Source: Nitrospiraceae bacterium
Lineage (GTDB): Bacteria > Nitrospirota > Nitrospiria > Nitrospirales > Nitrospiraceae
Length of the DNA: 36,618 nt
Reading direction: 5' to 3'
Assembly (NCBI GenBank): GCA_035623075.1
Contig: DASPUC010000010.1
Span: 1 to 36,618 of the forward strand
In this document: in pieces, positions 18,799 through 26,217 of the stretch
Position numbering within the stretch: position 1 is the first letter of the stretch
Layout: each line of letters starts with the position of its first letter
Notes under the pieces: generated by a model
What the model was told of the DNA's origin: nothing
Seen by the model: only the letters and a program-made list of their open reading frames with translations
The model's database searches: none
Program-made: the position numbers and the translations under genes

Positions 18799-20028
18799 TC
18801 AGCACCATCTGGCACGAGTAGTTTTGAGCTGCGGCCAGGAAGCGTTGCGGATGATTTCCTGATAATAGGTTTCGAGCATCGCGGCTCGGGCTGGTTCGAC
18901 AATCACCAACTGTCGTTGGTCGAAGGTGTTAGCGCAATAAAGATAGGACAGCTGTTCCGAGGTTCCGAGTTCGACATGAAATTGGCGGCCGCCCTGTTCT
19001 TGTCGTGTCGTTTCCTTCGAAATCTCCTTTCCTTTCAGCCCTTGCCAAACTCCCTGAGCTGAGGGGCAATGGTTTTCGTAGAGTGGCGTGTCAGGATCGG
19101 TTGACGCAGGTTTCGAATTCGCCCGATCAAATGGCGCGCCTTCGTCCGGTTCCGGCAGCTCATTCCACGCGATGCCATTCCCCTGTCCTTTGGTCAGGAC
19201 ATAAAATGGACCGTCGTCCGCCACGTCCTCAATCACTGAGTAGCGAATTGGCTCCGGCTTCTCCAATAGACGAAGACCGCGCGCCGCGAAGGCTCGTTGC
19301 AATGGTATGCGCCGCGCGAGCTGCCTGGTCTTCTCGAAAACACACATATGGCCGTTCGCCGCTAGGGCCCCCGCAAGCCGATCAAGTCGCACGCCAATTC
19401 CCGTTCGCTGTTCGAACTCCGATTGTTCCCGAGCCTCACGCGCACGCTCAAAAGTCTGCCAGCTCTGACTGGGAATTCCAGGATCCTGTTCAGCTTGGAC
19501 AATCGCATGGGTCGCAACGATGAGATCATACAATCCGGAAAGAGATTCACACTCTATATCGATGCACTCGAAGCGGACATTCGTCAGATTCAGCTTATGT
19601 GCTTGCTCATTCGCCATAGTCATTGAGCGGTGGGAGCGGTCGATACCGAGAAATTGTTTGTTGGGAAATTGCCTGGCGTAGAACGTGGTCAGAATGCCGA
19701 CGCCGCAGCCGAAGTCCAGAATGGTCTTGGCCTCTTTGACATGTGCGGCCACGCGTGAACTGATTTCGCGGTAATACTCGTAGCGTTGGCTGTAGAGGAC
19801 CGGCAAGATACGCGGATCGGCAGTCAGGTCATAGAAGGCGATTTCATCCTGACAATCTCCTGCCCGCTTTCGCTCGACCTGCTGGTTGAGACGATTCAGA
19901 TCCGCTGAAGAAAGGTTCTCCCGTTGCCACCCGAAGTACTCTGCATCAGATGTGAAATGCTTGAGGCCCCACCAAGAAAGGTGATCGTGAAGTGTCCTTC
20001 GTATCCCGTCGTTCGATTCACGAGGCAC
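18799..20028 (-). CDS. SAM-dependent methyltransferase with unusual C-terminal half
   Basis: 409 residues. An N-terminal helical lead of about 90 residues (HDHLSWWGLKHFTSDAEYFG) precedes a class I fold: motif I ILDFGCGVGILTTFYARQFP (103-122), motif II FLGIDRSH, and ECIDIECESLSGLYDLIVAT. After about residue 220 there is a second region (MCVFEKTRQLARR, PFYVLTKGQGNGIAW, and a final HVELGTSEQLSYLYCANTFD) that I cannot assign. GTG 20028 has GAGGGG upstream; the gap from the ProA-like gene is 23 bases, so they are probably co-transcribed. The substrate is unknown. Confidence 0.75.
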   Translation of the reverse strand: MPRESNDGIRRTLHDHLSWWGLKHFTSDAEYFGWQRENLSSADLNRLNQQVERKRAGDCQDEIAFYDLTADPRILPVLYSQRYEYYREISSRVAAHVKEAKTILDFGCGVGILTTFYARQFPNKQFLGIDRSHRSMTMANEQAHKLNLTNVRFECIDIECESLSGLYDLIVATHAIVQAEQDPGIPSQSWQTFERAREAREQSEFEQRTGIGVRLDRLAGALAANGHMCVFEKTRQLARRIPLQRAFAARGLRLLEKPEPIRYSVIEDVADDGPFYVLTKGQGNGIAWNELPEPDEGAPFDRANSKPASTDPDTPLYENHCPSAQGVWQGLKGKEISKETTRQEQGGRQFHVELGTSEQLSYLYCANTFDQRQLVIVEPARAAMLETYYQEIIRNASWPQLKTTRARWC

Positions 20029-20051: not shown

Positions 20052-21416
20052 TCACGGCCTTTTCAGCATGATCGCGTCAAAGTAGGTCTCAGGAACCGGA
20101 TGGGGTAAGCGCAACTGTCCCGTCCCAAACGCGACATACTTTTCACAAGTCAATTGCTCCAGGCCGATCGGTCCTTTCGCATGGATACGTGACGTGCTAA
20201 GCCCGATGTCGGTGCCAGCCCCATAACTGTCCCCGGCGTTGAGGCGCGAGGAAGCGTTGACCAGCACGGCGCTTGCATCAACTTCGCGCGTGAATCGCAT
20301 GGCTGAGTCATAGCGCGCCGTGGCAATGACCGCGGTCAGACAGGGCCCGTGCTCGGCAATGTGGGCCATGGCCTCCTCCATGTTGACGACCATCTTGACC
20401 GCCAACACCGGTGCCTGGAACTGCTTGTCCCAATCCTCGTCCGCTGCCGGCGTAATAGAGGTATGTCCGCTGATCGGCATTTGTCCCATGAGAGCCACGG
20501 TCTTCGAACAGCCCCGCACCTGAACTTTGAATTCGACGAGCAGACGATTGATCAGCGCCGGCAGGAATTGCCGGGCAATTACCTGTTGCACAAGCAACGT
20601 GTCGAGCGAATTCGCCGCCTCGGCCCATTGCACCTTGGAATTCACAACTAGGTTTTGGACCATGGGTAAGTCGGCCTCCGCATCCACATAGAGGTGCGTG
20701 AGTCCTCCATCGTGGCAGAGCACCGGCATCTTGGCCTGTTCGAGCACCGCCTTGCGTAGCCCCGGCCCGCCTCGTGGAATGATCGCATCGAGACTCTTGC
20801 CGGCTCGAATCAGTTCGACCGCTACCTCTTTCTCCGGACGCTCCACCAGAATCCACGCTCCCGGTGGGACACCGGCCTGTCCCGCTGCTTCTCGAATCCC
20901 GGCACCGATGACTTGATGGGTTTGTCCCCACTCAGGCGCCCCGCGAAAGACACAGACGTTCCCCGCTTTGAGACAGAGGGCGATGGTTTCCACCGTAACG
21001 AGGGGTTTCATTTCGGAAACTACCCCAATCACCCCGATCGGCACACGGACCCGACTTACTTGTAGTCCGTCAGGCTGCTCCCACCGTTTCGTCACCGCTC
21101 CCACCGGATCCGGCAGATCGGCAATAGCACGGAGCCGCTCGGCCATTTCCTTAATATCGTCCGCCGTCACCCGGACACGGGCGACGGCTGTCTTCATCCG
21201 ATCCTTGTTCGCCTCCCCAGCAAAGGACTTCCCTACAGCCTCGACATCCTGTTCATTCGCCGCGACAATTTTCTCCTTGTCCGTCTCAATTCGATCTGCC
21301 ATTTGCCGCAGAGCCTTTTCTTTGACCGGGCCTGACAGCATCGCGATCTGCCTCGTGACAGTTCTCACCTGTTTCAATAACTTATCCATATATAATTTAA
21401 CTGGAACTTCAGGCAT
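20052..21416 (-). CDS. ProA-like aldehyde dehydrogenase homologue lacking the catalytic Cys
   Basis: 454 residues, about 35 longer than a typical gamma-glutamyl phosphate reductase. The ProA framework is clear: GVIGVVSEMKPLVTVETIAL, LDAIIPRGGPGL, HDGGLTHLYVDAEADL, VNASSRLNAGDSYGAGTDIG and STSRIHAKGPIGLEQLT. However, where ProA has a catalytic cysteine in PGVCNAxETLL, this protein has AEAANSLDTLL. Codon 268 is GCG (20615-20613), so the nucleophile is Ala. A cysteine in PVLCHDGG (C234) is about 34 residues away. Reduction of glutamyl phosphate by the normal mechanism therefore looks impossible, and it is more likely a changed or regulatory enzyme. GAGG precedes ATG 21416. Confidence 0.8.
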   Translation of the reverse strand: MPEVPVKLYMDKLLKQVRTVTRQIAMLSGPVKEKALRQMADRIETDKEKIVAANEQDVEAVGKSFAGEANKDRMKTAVARVRVTADDIKEMAERLRAIADLPDPVGAVTKRWEQPDGLQVSRVRVPIGVIGVVSEMKPLVTVETIALCLKAGNVCVFRGAPEWGQTHQVIGAGIREAAGQAGVPPGAWILVERPEKEVAVELIRAGKSLDAIIPRGGPGLRKAVLEQAKMPVLCHDGGLTHLYVDAEADLPMVQNLVVNSKVQWAEAANSLDTLLVQQVIARQFLPALINRLLVEFKVQVRGCSKTVALMGQMPISGHTSITPAADEDWDKQFQAPVLAVKMVVNMEEAMAHIAEHGPCLTAVIATARYDSAMRFTREVDASAVLVNASSRLNAGDSYGAGTDIGLSTSRIHAKGPIGLEQLTCEKYVAFGTGQLRLPHPVPETYFDAIMLKRP

Positions 21417-21492: not shown

Positions 21493-21522
21493 ACTATAAC
21501 ACGCGATTTTTCTGCCAGTAAA
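21493..21522 (-). promoter_or_regulatory. sigma-70 type promoter for the ProA-like gene
   Basis: On the minus strand TTTACT (21522-21517), 18-base spacer, TATAGT (21498-21493), about 77 bases before the ATG. It suggests the ProA-like and methyltransferase genes can be transcribed separately from the upstream transporter gene. Confidence 0.5.
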
Positions 21523-21534
21523 GCGCCCTCCTGT

Positions 21535-22818
21535 TCATTCGTAAGCGACTTGTTTTCTCCTGCGCCGCTCTTCTTGACCCGCTAAACTCCAACCAAGCCA
21601 TCCCCACAGAACCGCGATCGGCACGAGCATCCAGGCCAGCTGAGTGGTCGTGGCCCCGATTGCTTTCACGCCGTTGACGATCCAGCCTGTGGCAGCATCG
21701 CCGCCGCGTGCAATTGCCGTATCGATGAAGTTTTTGGCTTTGTATTTTTCCTCGCGGCTGACGACCGTAAACAGCACTTCGCGCGCCGGTTTTGAGATGG
21801 CGTATTCCCCTACACGACGCACGACCGTGAACAGAATGAACACCACCAGAACGGGCATGAGCCCGATTGCGCCGAATCCGATCACGCTGACGATTGGAAG
21901 AAATACGAGCGCCGCCCCTAGCCCGAGTGCACTAACCATGCGGCCCGTCACGAACGCCTGCGTAATGAAGGCGATGACGTTGACCGCGAGATCGATGATG
22001 GCGAAGAGGCGAGTTCGCGCTTCCGGTGTCGGGATCTGCAGGCCGACGAGCTTCGCCTGTTCCAGATAGACAAACGTCGCCGTCGTCGTCAGACAAAACA
22101 AATACAGACAGATTCCCAGGAGATAGGGTGACGTAAGCGCCAGACGAACACCGCCCCAGATGCTTCCTCCGATCGGCTCACCCCTTTGTCCCACCGGAGC
22201 TATGCGATGTTGTCGCGACCATCGTTCCAGATGATGGATACAGGTACAGCAGGCAATGAGAAATCCTACTGAGATCAGCATCAGTGACGCAACCGGGACG
22301 ACAAATGTCAGCCCTGCCGTCAGGAGAGGACCTGTCATGGCACCGGTGCTTCCACCTGCCGCAATGACGGCGAACAGTCGTGCGCCCTGTTCCGGTGTAA
22401 ATAGATCCGCCATAAAGCTCCAGAACACCGACACGACAAAGAGGTTGAATACCGAGAGCCACACGAAAAATACGCGCGCCGTCCATTCGGGCGTGACATG
22501 GCTCATCATCATGGCAAAGAAGCCGATCAGGTTGGCCGCGAAGAACAGGTACACCGCGAGCAATAGCCGATGCCGCGGCACCCGGGCGGAGAGGTACCCA
22601 AACAGCGGCGTGACTGCGAGCAGCGTGACGAACGTACCGGTGAACATCCAGGGCAAGTGTTGCACCCCTCCTTCTATCGCCATCTCATCGCGCACCGGCC
22701 GCAGGATGTAATAGCCGCACAGAAGGAAAAAGAAATAGAGGAAGGCCCATGCCAGTGGGACGACTTCTTCCGACTTGGCATTCGTCAACGACTGGAAGGA
22801 TTCCCGCAAGGTGGTCAT
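21535..22818 (-). CDS. ATP/ADP-translocase-like (NTP/NDP exchange) MFS protein
   Basis: 427 residues with about twelve membrane segments. The N-terminal part has FFFLLCGYYILRPVRDEMAI, the signature of the nucleotide-translocase-like MFS branch found in free-living bacteria, followed by RVPRHRLLLAVYLFF, FWSFMADLFTPEQGARLFAV and AAGGSTGAMTGP. The later half includes RVGEYAISKPAREVLFTVVS and EEKYKAKNFIDTAIARGGD, also typical. Free-living members are not shown to exchange ATP and their substrate is unknown. ATG 22818 is used; the extension up to 22938 overlaps the divergent gene and is Cys/Arg-rich with no hydrophobic pattern. Confidence 0.85.
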   Translation of the reverse strand: MTTLRESFQSLTNAKSEEVVPLAWAFLYFFFLLCGYYILRPVRDEMAIEGGVQHLPWMFTGTFVTLLAVTPLFGYLSARVPRHRLLLAVYLFFAANLIGFFAMMMSHVTPEWTARVFFVWLSVFNLFVVSVFWSFMADLFTPEQGARLFAVIAAGGSTGAMTGPLLTAGLTFVVPVASLMLISVGFLIACCTCIHHLERWSRQHRIAPVGQRGEPIGGSIWGGVRLALTSPYLLGICLYLFCLTTTATFVYLEQAKLVGLQIPTPEARTRLFAIIDLAVNVIAFITQAFVTGRMVSALGLGAALVFLPIVSVIGFGAIGLMPVLVVFILFTVVRRVGEYAISKPAREVLFTVVSREEKYKAKNFIDTAIARGGDAATGWIVNGVKAIGATTTQLAWMLVPIAVLWGWLGWSLAGQEERRRRKQVAYE

Positions 22819-22892
22819 ACGGCGGCATCCTGCCGCGGTACACTTTCCCGCGCAAGGGGAAAATTTGCTACAATGCCGCGGCGGAGGGACCT

Positions 22893-24113
22893 GTGACACC
22901 GGATGACGCGCGCGCCCACTACAACTATCTGATGACACTGTGCATCAGGCGCGAGGAGGCCTTCGGGCCCATGGCGCTGGCGTTCCTTCGCGAGCCTCGA
23001 TTTGAGCAACTCGGTCTGACGAAGGAAGAGCAATTCAATCTCTATATGGCGACGGCGGAGGCCTTCGCCCCAGAGCCAAAACGGTACACGGCAAAACTGG
23101 AATGTCTGCAGAAGGCTCAGGCCCTGCTTCCCCACACTCGGTTTTTTGATCTAGGGCTCGCCCGTCAGCTCCAACACGATATTCAGAAGACGACCGCCGA
23201 CCTGGACATCTATACCCAGGCGATGAAGGTGGCACGGCCCCACGATCTCACCGTGCAGCGACTCATCGTGGAAACCGAGGTGCCGGAGTACTTTCTCGAC
23301 CTCGCGCAAAAACGAGCCGCCGCCTACTACCAGAGCAAGTATCATCTTCCCTCCGAATCGAAGACCGCGCAACACTTCGGTGGTCCACCCAAGAAGTTCG
23401 AGCCGGACAATCCGACCATTCAAAAGGAATTTCCTGGCGCCTGCGCTCCTTTCATGGCTGCACGGACCAATGCTTTTCATCTCCTGCTGCCGTTCGATTT
23501 GAAAATCAGCCGCACGCCGGAGGATCCCCTTGATGCCGGCGTGCGTATTTTCTACGCCAAGCCCGGGTACTCGTATCCGCTGCGGTACGAAATGGGCAAG
23601 CTCTGCGGCTACCACGACGGCCAGGTGCTCGACATCGCGTTGGACGATCCAAACCTCTTCTTCGTCTCCGTGTCCGAAATCAAAGAACCGGCTTTCCGCT
23701 ATATTCCACCAGATCGCGCGCCGGACGTCCCCGATGAATTGGCTTACCCGATTTCCGTATTAAACATGGTCGGCTCACTGGGTCCCTTCATTCAGGTCAG
23801 TTGCAAATTCAAAGTCTGGTTCGACGCATCGGTCGTCTCACTGCTGATCCAAGGGGCACCGGACCTGGCGGAATACGGCCTGCAAGGAGCGTCGGGCCTG
23901 ATGACTCGCACCTATGCCTCCGACCGCGTCGAAGCCTATGCGGAATCGTTCCGGCAACCCTGGCAAGAAGGGTTGAGCTACAACTTTGTGAATCTCCATC
24001 TCGGATTATTGCCGGACAAGCAGACGGCGCTCATCCCGTTTAACACGCCGATCTTTACGATCTATCCGGTGTTGAGCCGGCATGCCCACAACTTCGAGGA
24101 GAAGCCGGCGTGA
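22893..24113 (+). CDS. conserved-looking hypothetical protein, 406 aa
   Basis: A soluble protein without signal peptide or membrane segments. The first 150 residues are helical and TPR-like in spacing ([30 protein letters not shown]). The rest is mixed alpha/beta with [60 protein letters not shown] and [21 protein letters not shown] cannot name a family. GTG 22893 is chosen because GGCGGAGGG precedes it; the frame extends further upstream but into the transporter's divergent start region. Its TGA overlaps the GTG of the threonine aldolase gene (GTGA), so the two are translationally coupled, suggesting a related role. Confidence 0.75.
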
Positions 24114-25141
24114 TCGACTTGCGCAGCGATACGGTCACCAAGCCGTCCGATGCGATGCGCAAGGCCATGGCGCGTGCCGAGGTCGGCGATGATGTCTATG
24201 GAGAAGATCCCACCGTGAATCGACTCCAGGACATGGCCGCGGCCATGCTGGGGAAAAAAGCGGCGCTCTTCGTCCCATCTGGCACGATGGCGAATCAACT
24301 CTCGATCCGGATTCAAACGCAACCGGGCCAGGAAGTGATCGTGGAGAGTAAGAGCCACATCGTGCGCTATGAACAGGGCGCCGCTGGGGCGCTTTCCGGC
24401 GTGCAGCTCCACTGGGTGACCGGCGAGCGTGGCATCATGACGGCGGAGCAGATCGAAGCAGCGATCCGCCCGAAAGACCCCTATTCCATCAGGACGGCCC
24501 TGATTTGTTTGGAGAACACGCACAACGCCGGCGGAGGTACGATTTACCCGCTCTCGACGATCGAACGGATTCGCGAGGTCGCCCTCCGCCACGGCATCCC
24601 CATGCACCTGGATGGGGCGCGGTTATTTAACGCCATTGCGGCCACGACATTGCCGCCGACGTCCTACGCCCAGAACTTTGAGACAGTGTCGCTCTGCCTT
24701 TCCAAGGGACTCGGTGCGCCGGTCGGTTCGCTGATCCTCACAAACGATTCAACATTAATCGAGAGAGCCAGACGGTTTCGCCGCATGTATGGCGGAGGGA
24801 TGAGGCAGGCCGGGATTCTGGCTGCGGCGGGAATTTATGCTCTTGAGCATAACATCGGCCGCTTGAAGGAAGATCATGACAATGCGAAGCGGCTGGCCCG
24901 GAAACTTCAGCAGATCCCGTCCATCTCCGTCAATCTGCAACACGTGGACACCAACATCGTGATTTTCGACGTCGTCAATCACCGCCACTCTCCCACCGCG
25001 CTCGTCACAGCCCTCAAACAGGAAGGGGTCTTGATCAATGCGATCGGAGGCAATAGTTTTCGCGCCGTCACCCATCTCGACGTTTCCGCTAAACAGATCG
25101 ATGAGGCGGCTGAAATCTTCGTACGGGTCTTGGGGAGCTGA
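24110..25141 (+). CDS. ltaE: low-specificity L-threonine aldolase
   Basis: 343 residues of fold-type I PLP enzyme. The sequence opens [20 protein letters not shown] and [15 protein letters not shown] as the family does. H83 (KSHIVRYE) should stack on PLP, D168 ([10 protein letters not shown]) contacts the pyridine nitrogen, and K199 ([12 protein letters not shown]) forms the Schiff base. It splits L-threonine and allo-threonine to glycine and acetaldehyde. Start GTG 24110 overlaps the upstream stop by GTGA, and the family similarity begins at that codon. Confidence 0.95.
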
Positions 25142-25431: not shown

Positions 25432-26217
25432 ATGGACACGAACAACTCCGGTACGCTGCCGACACGGGAAGAACTCAACGCAGAACTCCTCGAAATTCCG
25501 GCACCGCCCGAGCAACCTGAGGCAGTTAACGAACCGGCCTATGAGGATGTGGTTGCCGTCGCCTTTCGACATGTTCGTGGGAGGCGAGGCGGTGACCTCG
25601 TCAGCGTGATTCTCGTCGGTTCGGGAGCACGACGCGCGGTGACCGCCCACAGTGATGTCGACCTGATCGCGCTCGTGAAGGGACAGGCCGAGGGACATGA
25701 AATCGTCCGTATCGCGGATCGTCTTGTCGACATCAGATATCGAGGGCATAAGGAGGTTGAAGAAGAGCTCCCCTATTCCCCTCGCCTCCCCCCGCTCCTG
25801 AGGAAAGGGCGCATCCTTTATGATCACGACGGGATCGGCGCCAACCTGATCGAACGGGCAAACCAGCGATTCCGTCAAGGCCCCCCGCCCGCAAGTATGA
25901 ATGAGCAGATACGGATGAAGGCGGGCTGTCTCCATTGGCTTGGCAAAGCTCAAGACGTCGCCGATAAGCCATCTACCGCGAACTATCTCCTGATGTTGTT
26001 CTTTGACGATTTCGTGAACGCGTTTTTCCGGCTGCGCGGCCTATGGCTGACGGCACCCATCGATGTCCCCCGGTTCATCACGTCCCGCGATGCCGTCCTT
26101 GGAGATTTAGCCGGACGCTTCTTGGCCGCCTCGACGCTGGCGGAACGGTTGAACTGTGCTCGCGATCTCGTACCACTCCTGTTCAAGGATGTTCCCAATC
26201 CGGCTCGGATCGATTGA
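25432..26217 (+). CDS. nucleotidyltransferase-domain protein
   Basis: 261 residues with a DNA polymerase beta-like fold. The motif is VSVILVGSGARRAVTAHSDV followed by DLIAL, with the metal-binding pair D75/D77 (SDVDL) after GSG at 63-65. The C-terminal half is helical and resembles the substrate-binding domain next to such NTases (FFDDFVNAFFRLRGLW). Members include antitoxin-like MNT proteins and antibiotic adenylyltransferases; a HEPN partner is not seen, unless the C-terminal helices serve that role. It directly follows the 79-residue gene without a gap. Confidence 0.8.
   Translation: MDTNNSGTLPTREELNAELLEIPAPPEQPEAVNEPAYEDVVAVAFRHVRGRRGGDLVSVILVGSGARRAVTAHSDVDLIALVKGQAEGHEIVRIADRLVDIRYRGHKEVEEELPYSPRLPPLLRKGRILYDHDGIGANLIERANQRFRQGPPPASMNEQIRMKAGCLHWLGKAQDVADKPSTANYLLMLFFDDFVNAFFRLRGLWLTAPIDVPRFITSRDAVLGDLAGRFLAASTLAERLNCARDLVPLLFKDVPNPARID

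Follow-up and report, generated by a model that had tools for sequence, protein, structure and literature searches.

A ProA paralogue without its catalytic cysteine, presumed to be a pseudoenzyme, is encoded beside a methyltransferase in two families of Nitrospirales

What can a protein with the framework of glutamyl-phosphate reductase (ProA) do once the nucleophile of that enzyme is gone? The question is raised by an open reading frame on the minus strand (positions 20052-21416) of the window, a stretch of 36,618 nucleotides that spans positions 1 to 36,618 of contig DASPUC010000010.1 in the Nitrospiraceae assembly GCA_035623075.1. An earlier note on this DNA had read the product as a ProA homologue with alanine in place of the catalytic cysteine, and as either a pseudoenzyme or an enzyme with new chemistry. 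The protein, 454 amino acids long, is presumed here to be a pseudoenzyme on the basis of its matches to the ProA models NF001221 and TIGR00407, its Ala268, and its orthologous family. The name ProA2 is coined here for that family of orthologous paralogues.

Relationship of ProA2 to canonical ProA

ProA2 clearly exceeds the curated cut-off of NF001221 (412.5 bits versus 289) and marginally exceeds that of TIGR00407 (322.5 bits versus 317.45), and its best solved relatives are the ProA enzymes 1o20, 8zok, and 4ghk. Homology to ProA extends over the full length of the protein, with about 48% identity to the ProA of the same genome and 33 to 41% identity to the ProAs of other bacteria. Because the ProA cut-offs are passed, family models would label ProA2 a glutamate-5-semialdehyde dehydrogenase, an annotation that, judged by its sequence, it should not carry; proline metabolism in models of Nitrospira is probably mis-assigned to two genes. 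ProA2 differs from the ProA family in lacking the catalytic Cys, in carrying fixed changes at positions that are invariant in ProA, in possessing an extra C-terminal tail, and in being linked to a methyltransferase gene rather than to proB. The protein is indeed longer than usual, as the earlier note had remarked (454 amino acids versus 417 in Escherichia coli ProA), with the excess made up of two short insertions and the tail. A predicted structure built with 24 close orthologues reached a mean pLDDT of 57, which is too poor for the pocket or the tail to be described.

A promoter-like site (TTTACT-N18-TATAGT, with TG before the second hexamer) lies 5' of the gene at 21493-21522 on the minus strand; the site is weak, and counts of the pattern were not above those in shuffled sequences. 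A pattern scan returned no terminator-like site on the same strand between ProA2 and the methyltransferase gene that follows it, again with pattern counts not above chance. Both features are suggestive only.

Loss of the nucleophile and remodelling of the active site

The catalytic residue of T. maritima ProA is named as Cys255 (PMC4271523), and in Drosophila P5CS the nucleophile of the GPR domain is C598, which attacks glutamyl phosphate to give a thioacyl intermediate (PMC8963878). According to a review, the nucleophilic Cys is the sole ALDH catalytic residue retained in ALDH18A1, the human P5C synthase (PMC10650815). Pairwise alignments with 1o20, 8zok, and 4ghk place WAEAANSLDTLL of ProA2 over RPGTCNAAEKLL, RPSTCNTVETLL, and RYGTCNTMETLL, respectively, with the catalytic Cys falling on Ala268 (codon GCG, 20613-20615, minus strand). 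The Cys of E. coli ProA, GabD, and AldA occupies the same column in an alignment of all of the sequences, in agreement with the substitution that the earlier note had read. In the 84 distinct full-length members of ProA2 compared, residue 268 is Ser in 54, Ala in 18, Pro in 7, Thr in 5, and Cys in none, versus Cys in 48 of 48 distinct canonical ProA sequences. The Cys of the PxTCNxxETLL motif is absent, then, from the ProA2 of the window and from every orthologue, and since this stands against its presence in every canonical ProA, Ala268 is neither a sequencing error nor a chance event. Alanine is a minority state within ProA2, with Ser the commonest, and the variation among Ser, Ala, Pro, and Thr argues that the position has no requirement for one specific side chain. 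These comparisons give good support to a loss of ProA chemistry: with the nucleophilic Cys gone, ProA2 would be expected to be unable to run the ProA reaction.

Other parts of the active site have been altered as well, and the two motifs singled out earlier were confirmed, with RGAPEW replacing RGGSEA and PVLCHDGG replacing PVIKHDxG. Within RGAPEW, Trp163 (codon 20928-20930, minus strand) is Trp in 83 of 84 ProA2 sequences and Ala in all 48 canonical ones, and the cofactor loop G160-S161-A163 has turned into A-P-W in most ProA2. Y134 of canonical ProA is Ser in 83/84 and E272 is Asp in 84/84, and the ProA-invariant residues R137 and N139 have also been lost. Gln332 (codon 20421-20423, minus strand) sits where GabD and AldA have the second Glu of their EETFGP motif; this position is Gln in 71 and Lys in 13 of the 84 ProA2 sequences and Glu in 48/48 canonical ProAs. 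In ALDHs the EETFGP Glu holds the nicotinamide ribose, and no ProA2 sequence retains it. A possible equivalence of ProA N139 with the oxyanion Asn of ALDHs was considered and dropped, the alignment being ambiguous there and the retention of only the Cys in ALDH18A1 contradicting it (PMC10650815).

Much of the framework is nonetheless kept in ProA2, including R158, R215, G216, K261, Q263, and N269, and R193 is invariant. ProA2 has thus lost catalytic residues and kept its family homology, which is the hallmark of an ALDH-superfamily pseudoenzyme. The C-terminal tail (residues 438 to 454, PHPVPETYFDAIMLKRP; 20055-20105, minus strand) is specific to ProA2, being absent from the 48 canonical ProAs, and follows a nearly invariant pattern, PHPVPxxYxDAxM, in which P438, H439, P440, P442, Y445, D447, A448, and M450 are invariant.

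Distribution, origin, and selection

A protein search of 118 genomes of the order found ProA2 orthologues in all 57 genomes of f1, the family of the source genome, at 55 to 78% identity, and in 47 of the 49 genomes of a second family, f2, at 44 to 49% identity (104 of 106 for the two families together). The two f2 genomes without one are drafts in fragments, with a completeness of 64% and 86%. Two further families of Nitrospirales, f3 and f40, gave only canonical-level matches to ProA2. Candidates from the rest of the phylum, outside f1 and f2, that had appeared as second TIGR00407 matches were rejected, as the ProA2 profile gave only canonical-level, fragment, or weak matches to them. When about 85,000 species genomes were scanned with a degenerate peptide, only records titled Nitrospira, Nitrospirae, or similar and one titled Nitrosospira came back, and the scan missed the 48%-identical f2 members. 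ProA2 may therefore occur outside Nitrospirota, since this one scan was blind to divergence of the f2 level.

In a maximum-likelihood tree (66 rows, PMSF), all ProA2 sequences form one clade with support of 100/100. The tree was drawn with a midpoint root, and the outgroups fall outside. The ProA2 clade is sister to the canonical ProAs of f1 and f2, with f3 ProA outside both, which places the duplication within Nitrospirales before the f1/f2 split. The stem branch of ProA2 is long, at 0.73 changes per site, and the family has diverged further than its sister since, with f1 and f2 members 47 to 56% identical in the pairs compared versus 64 to 73% for canonical ProA. Close pairs of ProA2 have a dN/dS of about 0.02 to 0.16, versus 0.06 to 0.14 for canonical ProA, so that ProA2 shows the strong purifying selection and freedom from decay expected of a pseudoenzyme that is in use. 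The low dN/dS and the conservation between f1 and f2 mark ProA2 as a gene with a function, divergent yet under constraint.

The methyltransferase F0 and the gene neighbourhood

The earlier note had placed a methyltransferase 23 bases downstream, and that gene, here called F0, is present as a 409-amino-acid open reading frame with a GTG start at 18799-20028 on the minus strand. The assignment of F0 as a SAM-dependent methyltransferase draws on Pfam matches (Methyltransf_31, 3.4e-13, and Methyltransf_25) and on fold matches, together with its adjacency to ProA2. F0 has the motif and fold of the class I enzymes: the SAM motif LDFGCGVG is kept, D105-x-GCGxG and D130 are conserved, and an AlphaFold2 model (mean pLDDT of 85.9) matches small-molecule methyltransferases, including those of antibiotic pathways, with a best Z of 18.7 and an rmsd of 2.7 over 194 residues. 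It differs from the methyltransferase structures listed in its low identity to them (10 to 22%) and in a fused, orphan C-terminal domain (PLYENHxPSAQ...YLYCANTFDQRQLVIV...; 18835-19086, minus strand). This domain, formed by the last 85 or so residues, is separate and conserved, with invariant P-x-Y-E, H-x-E-x-G, YLY, and D-x-RQ motifs; searches against Pfam, NCBIfam, and PDB sequences gave no convincing match, and in the phylum sample it was seen only inside F0.

Co-occurrence of the Cys-less form with the methyltransferase in other genomes, proposed earlier as a check, proved to be complete where it could be read: ProA2 is followed by F0 on the same strand in 85 of 85 genomes with both positions listed, with 16 to 312 bases (median, 129) between the matches. 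F0 is found in 136 of 138 f1 and f2 genomes, the exceptions being the draft G383 and G370, whose ProA2 match is truncated, and no F0 was found outside f1 and f2 among the genomes listed in the phylum sample. The neighbours upstream of ProA2 differ completely between the two families. In f1 they are often what we take, by sequence recognition, to be an MFS protein and a threonine aldolase-like gene, and in f2 they are presumably rpsB-tsf-pyrH-frr on the other strand. The ProA2-F0 linkage thus stays while its surroundings change.

Several neighbours in the window recur at other f1 loci. An MFS-like membrane protein of 467 amino acids (21535-22938, minus strand) lies 5' of ProA2 in many f1 genomes; it matches Pfam MFS_1 only, and an NCBIfam search gave no match. 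A 454-amino-acid protein without a Pfam match (22749-24113, plus strand) is a neighbour of ProA2 in several f1 genomes, and its reading frame overlaps a beta-eliminating lyase/threonine aldolase-like gene (24110-25141) at that gene's start; the latter is also a neighbour in several of them. A further protein of 261 amino acids without a Pfam match (25432-26217, plus strand) is conserved in the vicinity of ProA2 at many f1 loci and by eye resembles a nucleotidyltransferase (GSGARRAVTAHSDVDLIAL).

Possible roles of ProA2

Taken together, the comparisons lead us to regard ProA2, with moderate confidence, as a neofunctionalised pseudoenzyme that has become a regulatory, scaffold, or substrate-presenting partner of F0. 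In kind it is most likely, from its sequence, an ALDH-superfamily pseudoenzyme from the ProA/ALDH18 branch; the partnership with F0 is what genomic context points to. In this reading, a duplicated glutamyl-phosphate reductase lost its nucleophilic Cys, the sole ALDH-type catalytic residue of ProA, and gave up Y134, R137, N139, and E332 while fixing S134, W163, D272, and the C-terminal tail. ProA2 still has the ALDH-type framework and some of the dinucleotide site (R158, R215-G216, and the invariant R193), such that NADP(H) or a glutamate-like ligand might be bound without turnover, and W163 and the tail would provide new fixed surfaces. ProA2 would be coexpressed with F0 and act as its subunit, with canonical ProA meanwhile making proline. 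We thus infer co-transcription of the two genes, physical partnership of their products, residual ligand binding by ProA2, and its inactivity as a reductase. Several observations temper this interpretation: Ser268, the most frequent state, might in principle act as a weak nucleophile in the members that carry it; the conserved K261, Q263, and N269 could also fit a different retained activity; and F0, with a dN/dS of 0.16 to 0.28, evolves faster than ProA2, a difference that counts mildly against a tight complex.

A precedent for the fold is ALDH16A1, an ALDH-superfamily pseudoenzyme whose catalytic residues are gone and which is believed to work by binding other proteins (PMC10650815). As proposed for ProA2, it is an ALDH-fold protein without catalytic residues; it differs in being human and from another branch of the ALDHs, whereas ProA2 is bacterial, belongs to the ProA/ALDH18 branch, and has a fixed gene partner. 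ProA2 would be a clear example, in bacteria, of a pseudoenzyme of this branch, present in essentially all members of two Nitrospirales families, and its fixed partner makes the question of new roles for dead enzymes directly testable. In the open-licence literature searched, neither a Cys-less ProA nor the ProA2-F0 pair was found described for Nitrospira, and the two genes constitute an unstudied conserved core pair.

The other half of the earlier suggestion, new chemistry, is the strongest alternative and corresponds to an enzyme that works without Cys, for example by transferring hydride to an aldehyde or imine with NADP(H) as cofactor, and that either feeds F0 a substrate or takes up its product in an undescribed two-step pathway. 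The invariance of R158, R215-G216, and K261/Q263/N269/D272 would suit such an enzyme, as would the pairing with a methyltransferase gene. We nevertheless consider it unlikely, given that residue 268 wanders among Ser, Ala, Pro, and Thr and that the Gln or Lys in place of the EETFGP-aligned Glu in all ProA2, along with the A-P-W cofactor loop, speaks against normal hydride transfer. The same wandering, and the want of a nearby Cys kept across the family, favours the pseudoenzyme over new chemistry.

A role for ProA2 as a subunit that regulates proline synthesis, either in mixed oligomers with canonical ProA or bound to ProB, and so tunes the channelling of glutamyl phosphate is less likely still, because ProA2 is linked to F0 rather than to proA or proB. 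Glutamyl phosphate is channelled by ProA and ProB (PMC4271523), and dead paralogues can regulate live relatives, as illustrated by the AdoMetDC prozyme of trypanosomes, a paralogue of a metabolic enzyme that is itself catalytically dead and serves a non-catalytic function (PMC6221367). What that prozyme activates is its own live paralogue; for ProA2 the genomic evidence points instead to an unrelated methyltransferase. Genomes do keep both proA copies. The source genome (3.39 Mb, 99.9% complete) carries a canonical proA (G000:C50:14951-16132, 490.8 bits) with an intact motif (RPATCNAMETLL, CNAMETLL) and a proB on another contig (G000:C29), which excludes, for this genome, the case of a sole proA that the earlier note had set against its own reading. 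Canonical proA was not seen in a few drafts (e.g., G171, G177, G195, G222, and G224), probably because of assembly gaps; G171 has a proA fragment on another contig, and the single-contig f1 genomes inspected have both copies. ProA2, however, is neither a sole proA nor linked to proB, as a ProA role would have it. In the loci examined it is never beside proA or proB and always beside F0, and in its own genome it lies on a contig apart from both.

An active ProA that employs Ser, some other residue, or a migrated Cys as its nucleophile is very improbable. Ser268 occurs in 54/84 sequences, and Cys234, within the motif equivalent to PVIKHDxG of canonical ProA, is restricted to f1, where most members have it (66/84), but 30/84 have Ala, Pro, or Thr at 268, and the Cys234 position is Gly in 13/13 f2 members. 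Cys148 and Cys303 are conserved in ProA2 but are common to canonical ProA and hence not new, and no substitute nucleophile Cys is kept family-wide among the 84 distinct sequences. That the gene is merely a decaying duplicate, which the loss of the catalytic Cys might suggest, can practically be dismissed, as it has been kept since before the f1/f2 split with intact frames in the members found, a dN/dS far below 1, and invariant new residues and tail, even in genomes of 1.7 to 2.0 Mb.

To return to the favoured pseudoenzyme reading, a more specific form of it is offered as a tentative and rather doubtful possibility: ProA2 and F0 may make up a two-component Nitrospirales system in which a dead ligand-binding fold, serving as a glutamate/NADP(H) sensor or a substrate carrier, gates or feeds F0, with a radical SAM pair in early genera hinting at a modification or biosynthetic pathway.

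A B12-binding radical SAM pair near ProA2-F0

In early-branching f1 genera (L110, L112, L113, and L114), two tandem B12-binding radical SAM proteins are encoded directly after F0 (L110:8752-12592, L112:8932-12782, and L114:8841-10745 and following); in the source genome the pair is at G000:C46:1034-4879. The link of this pair to ProA2-F0 is only suggestive. The proteins are about 630 to 650 amino acids long and give only sub-cut-off matches to models of RiPP/PhpK-type radical SAM methyltransferases. Nearly every f1 and f2 genome has the pair, often at a distance of 20 to 120 kb from ProA2-F0. It is present also in f3, which is without ProA2, and is therefore older than ProA2.
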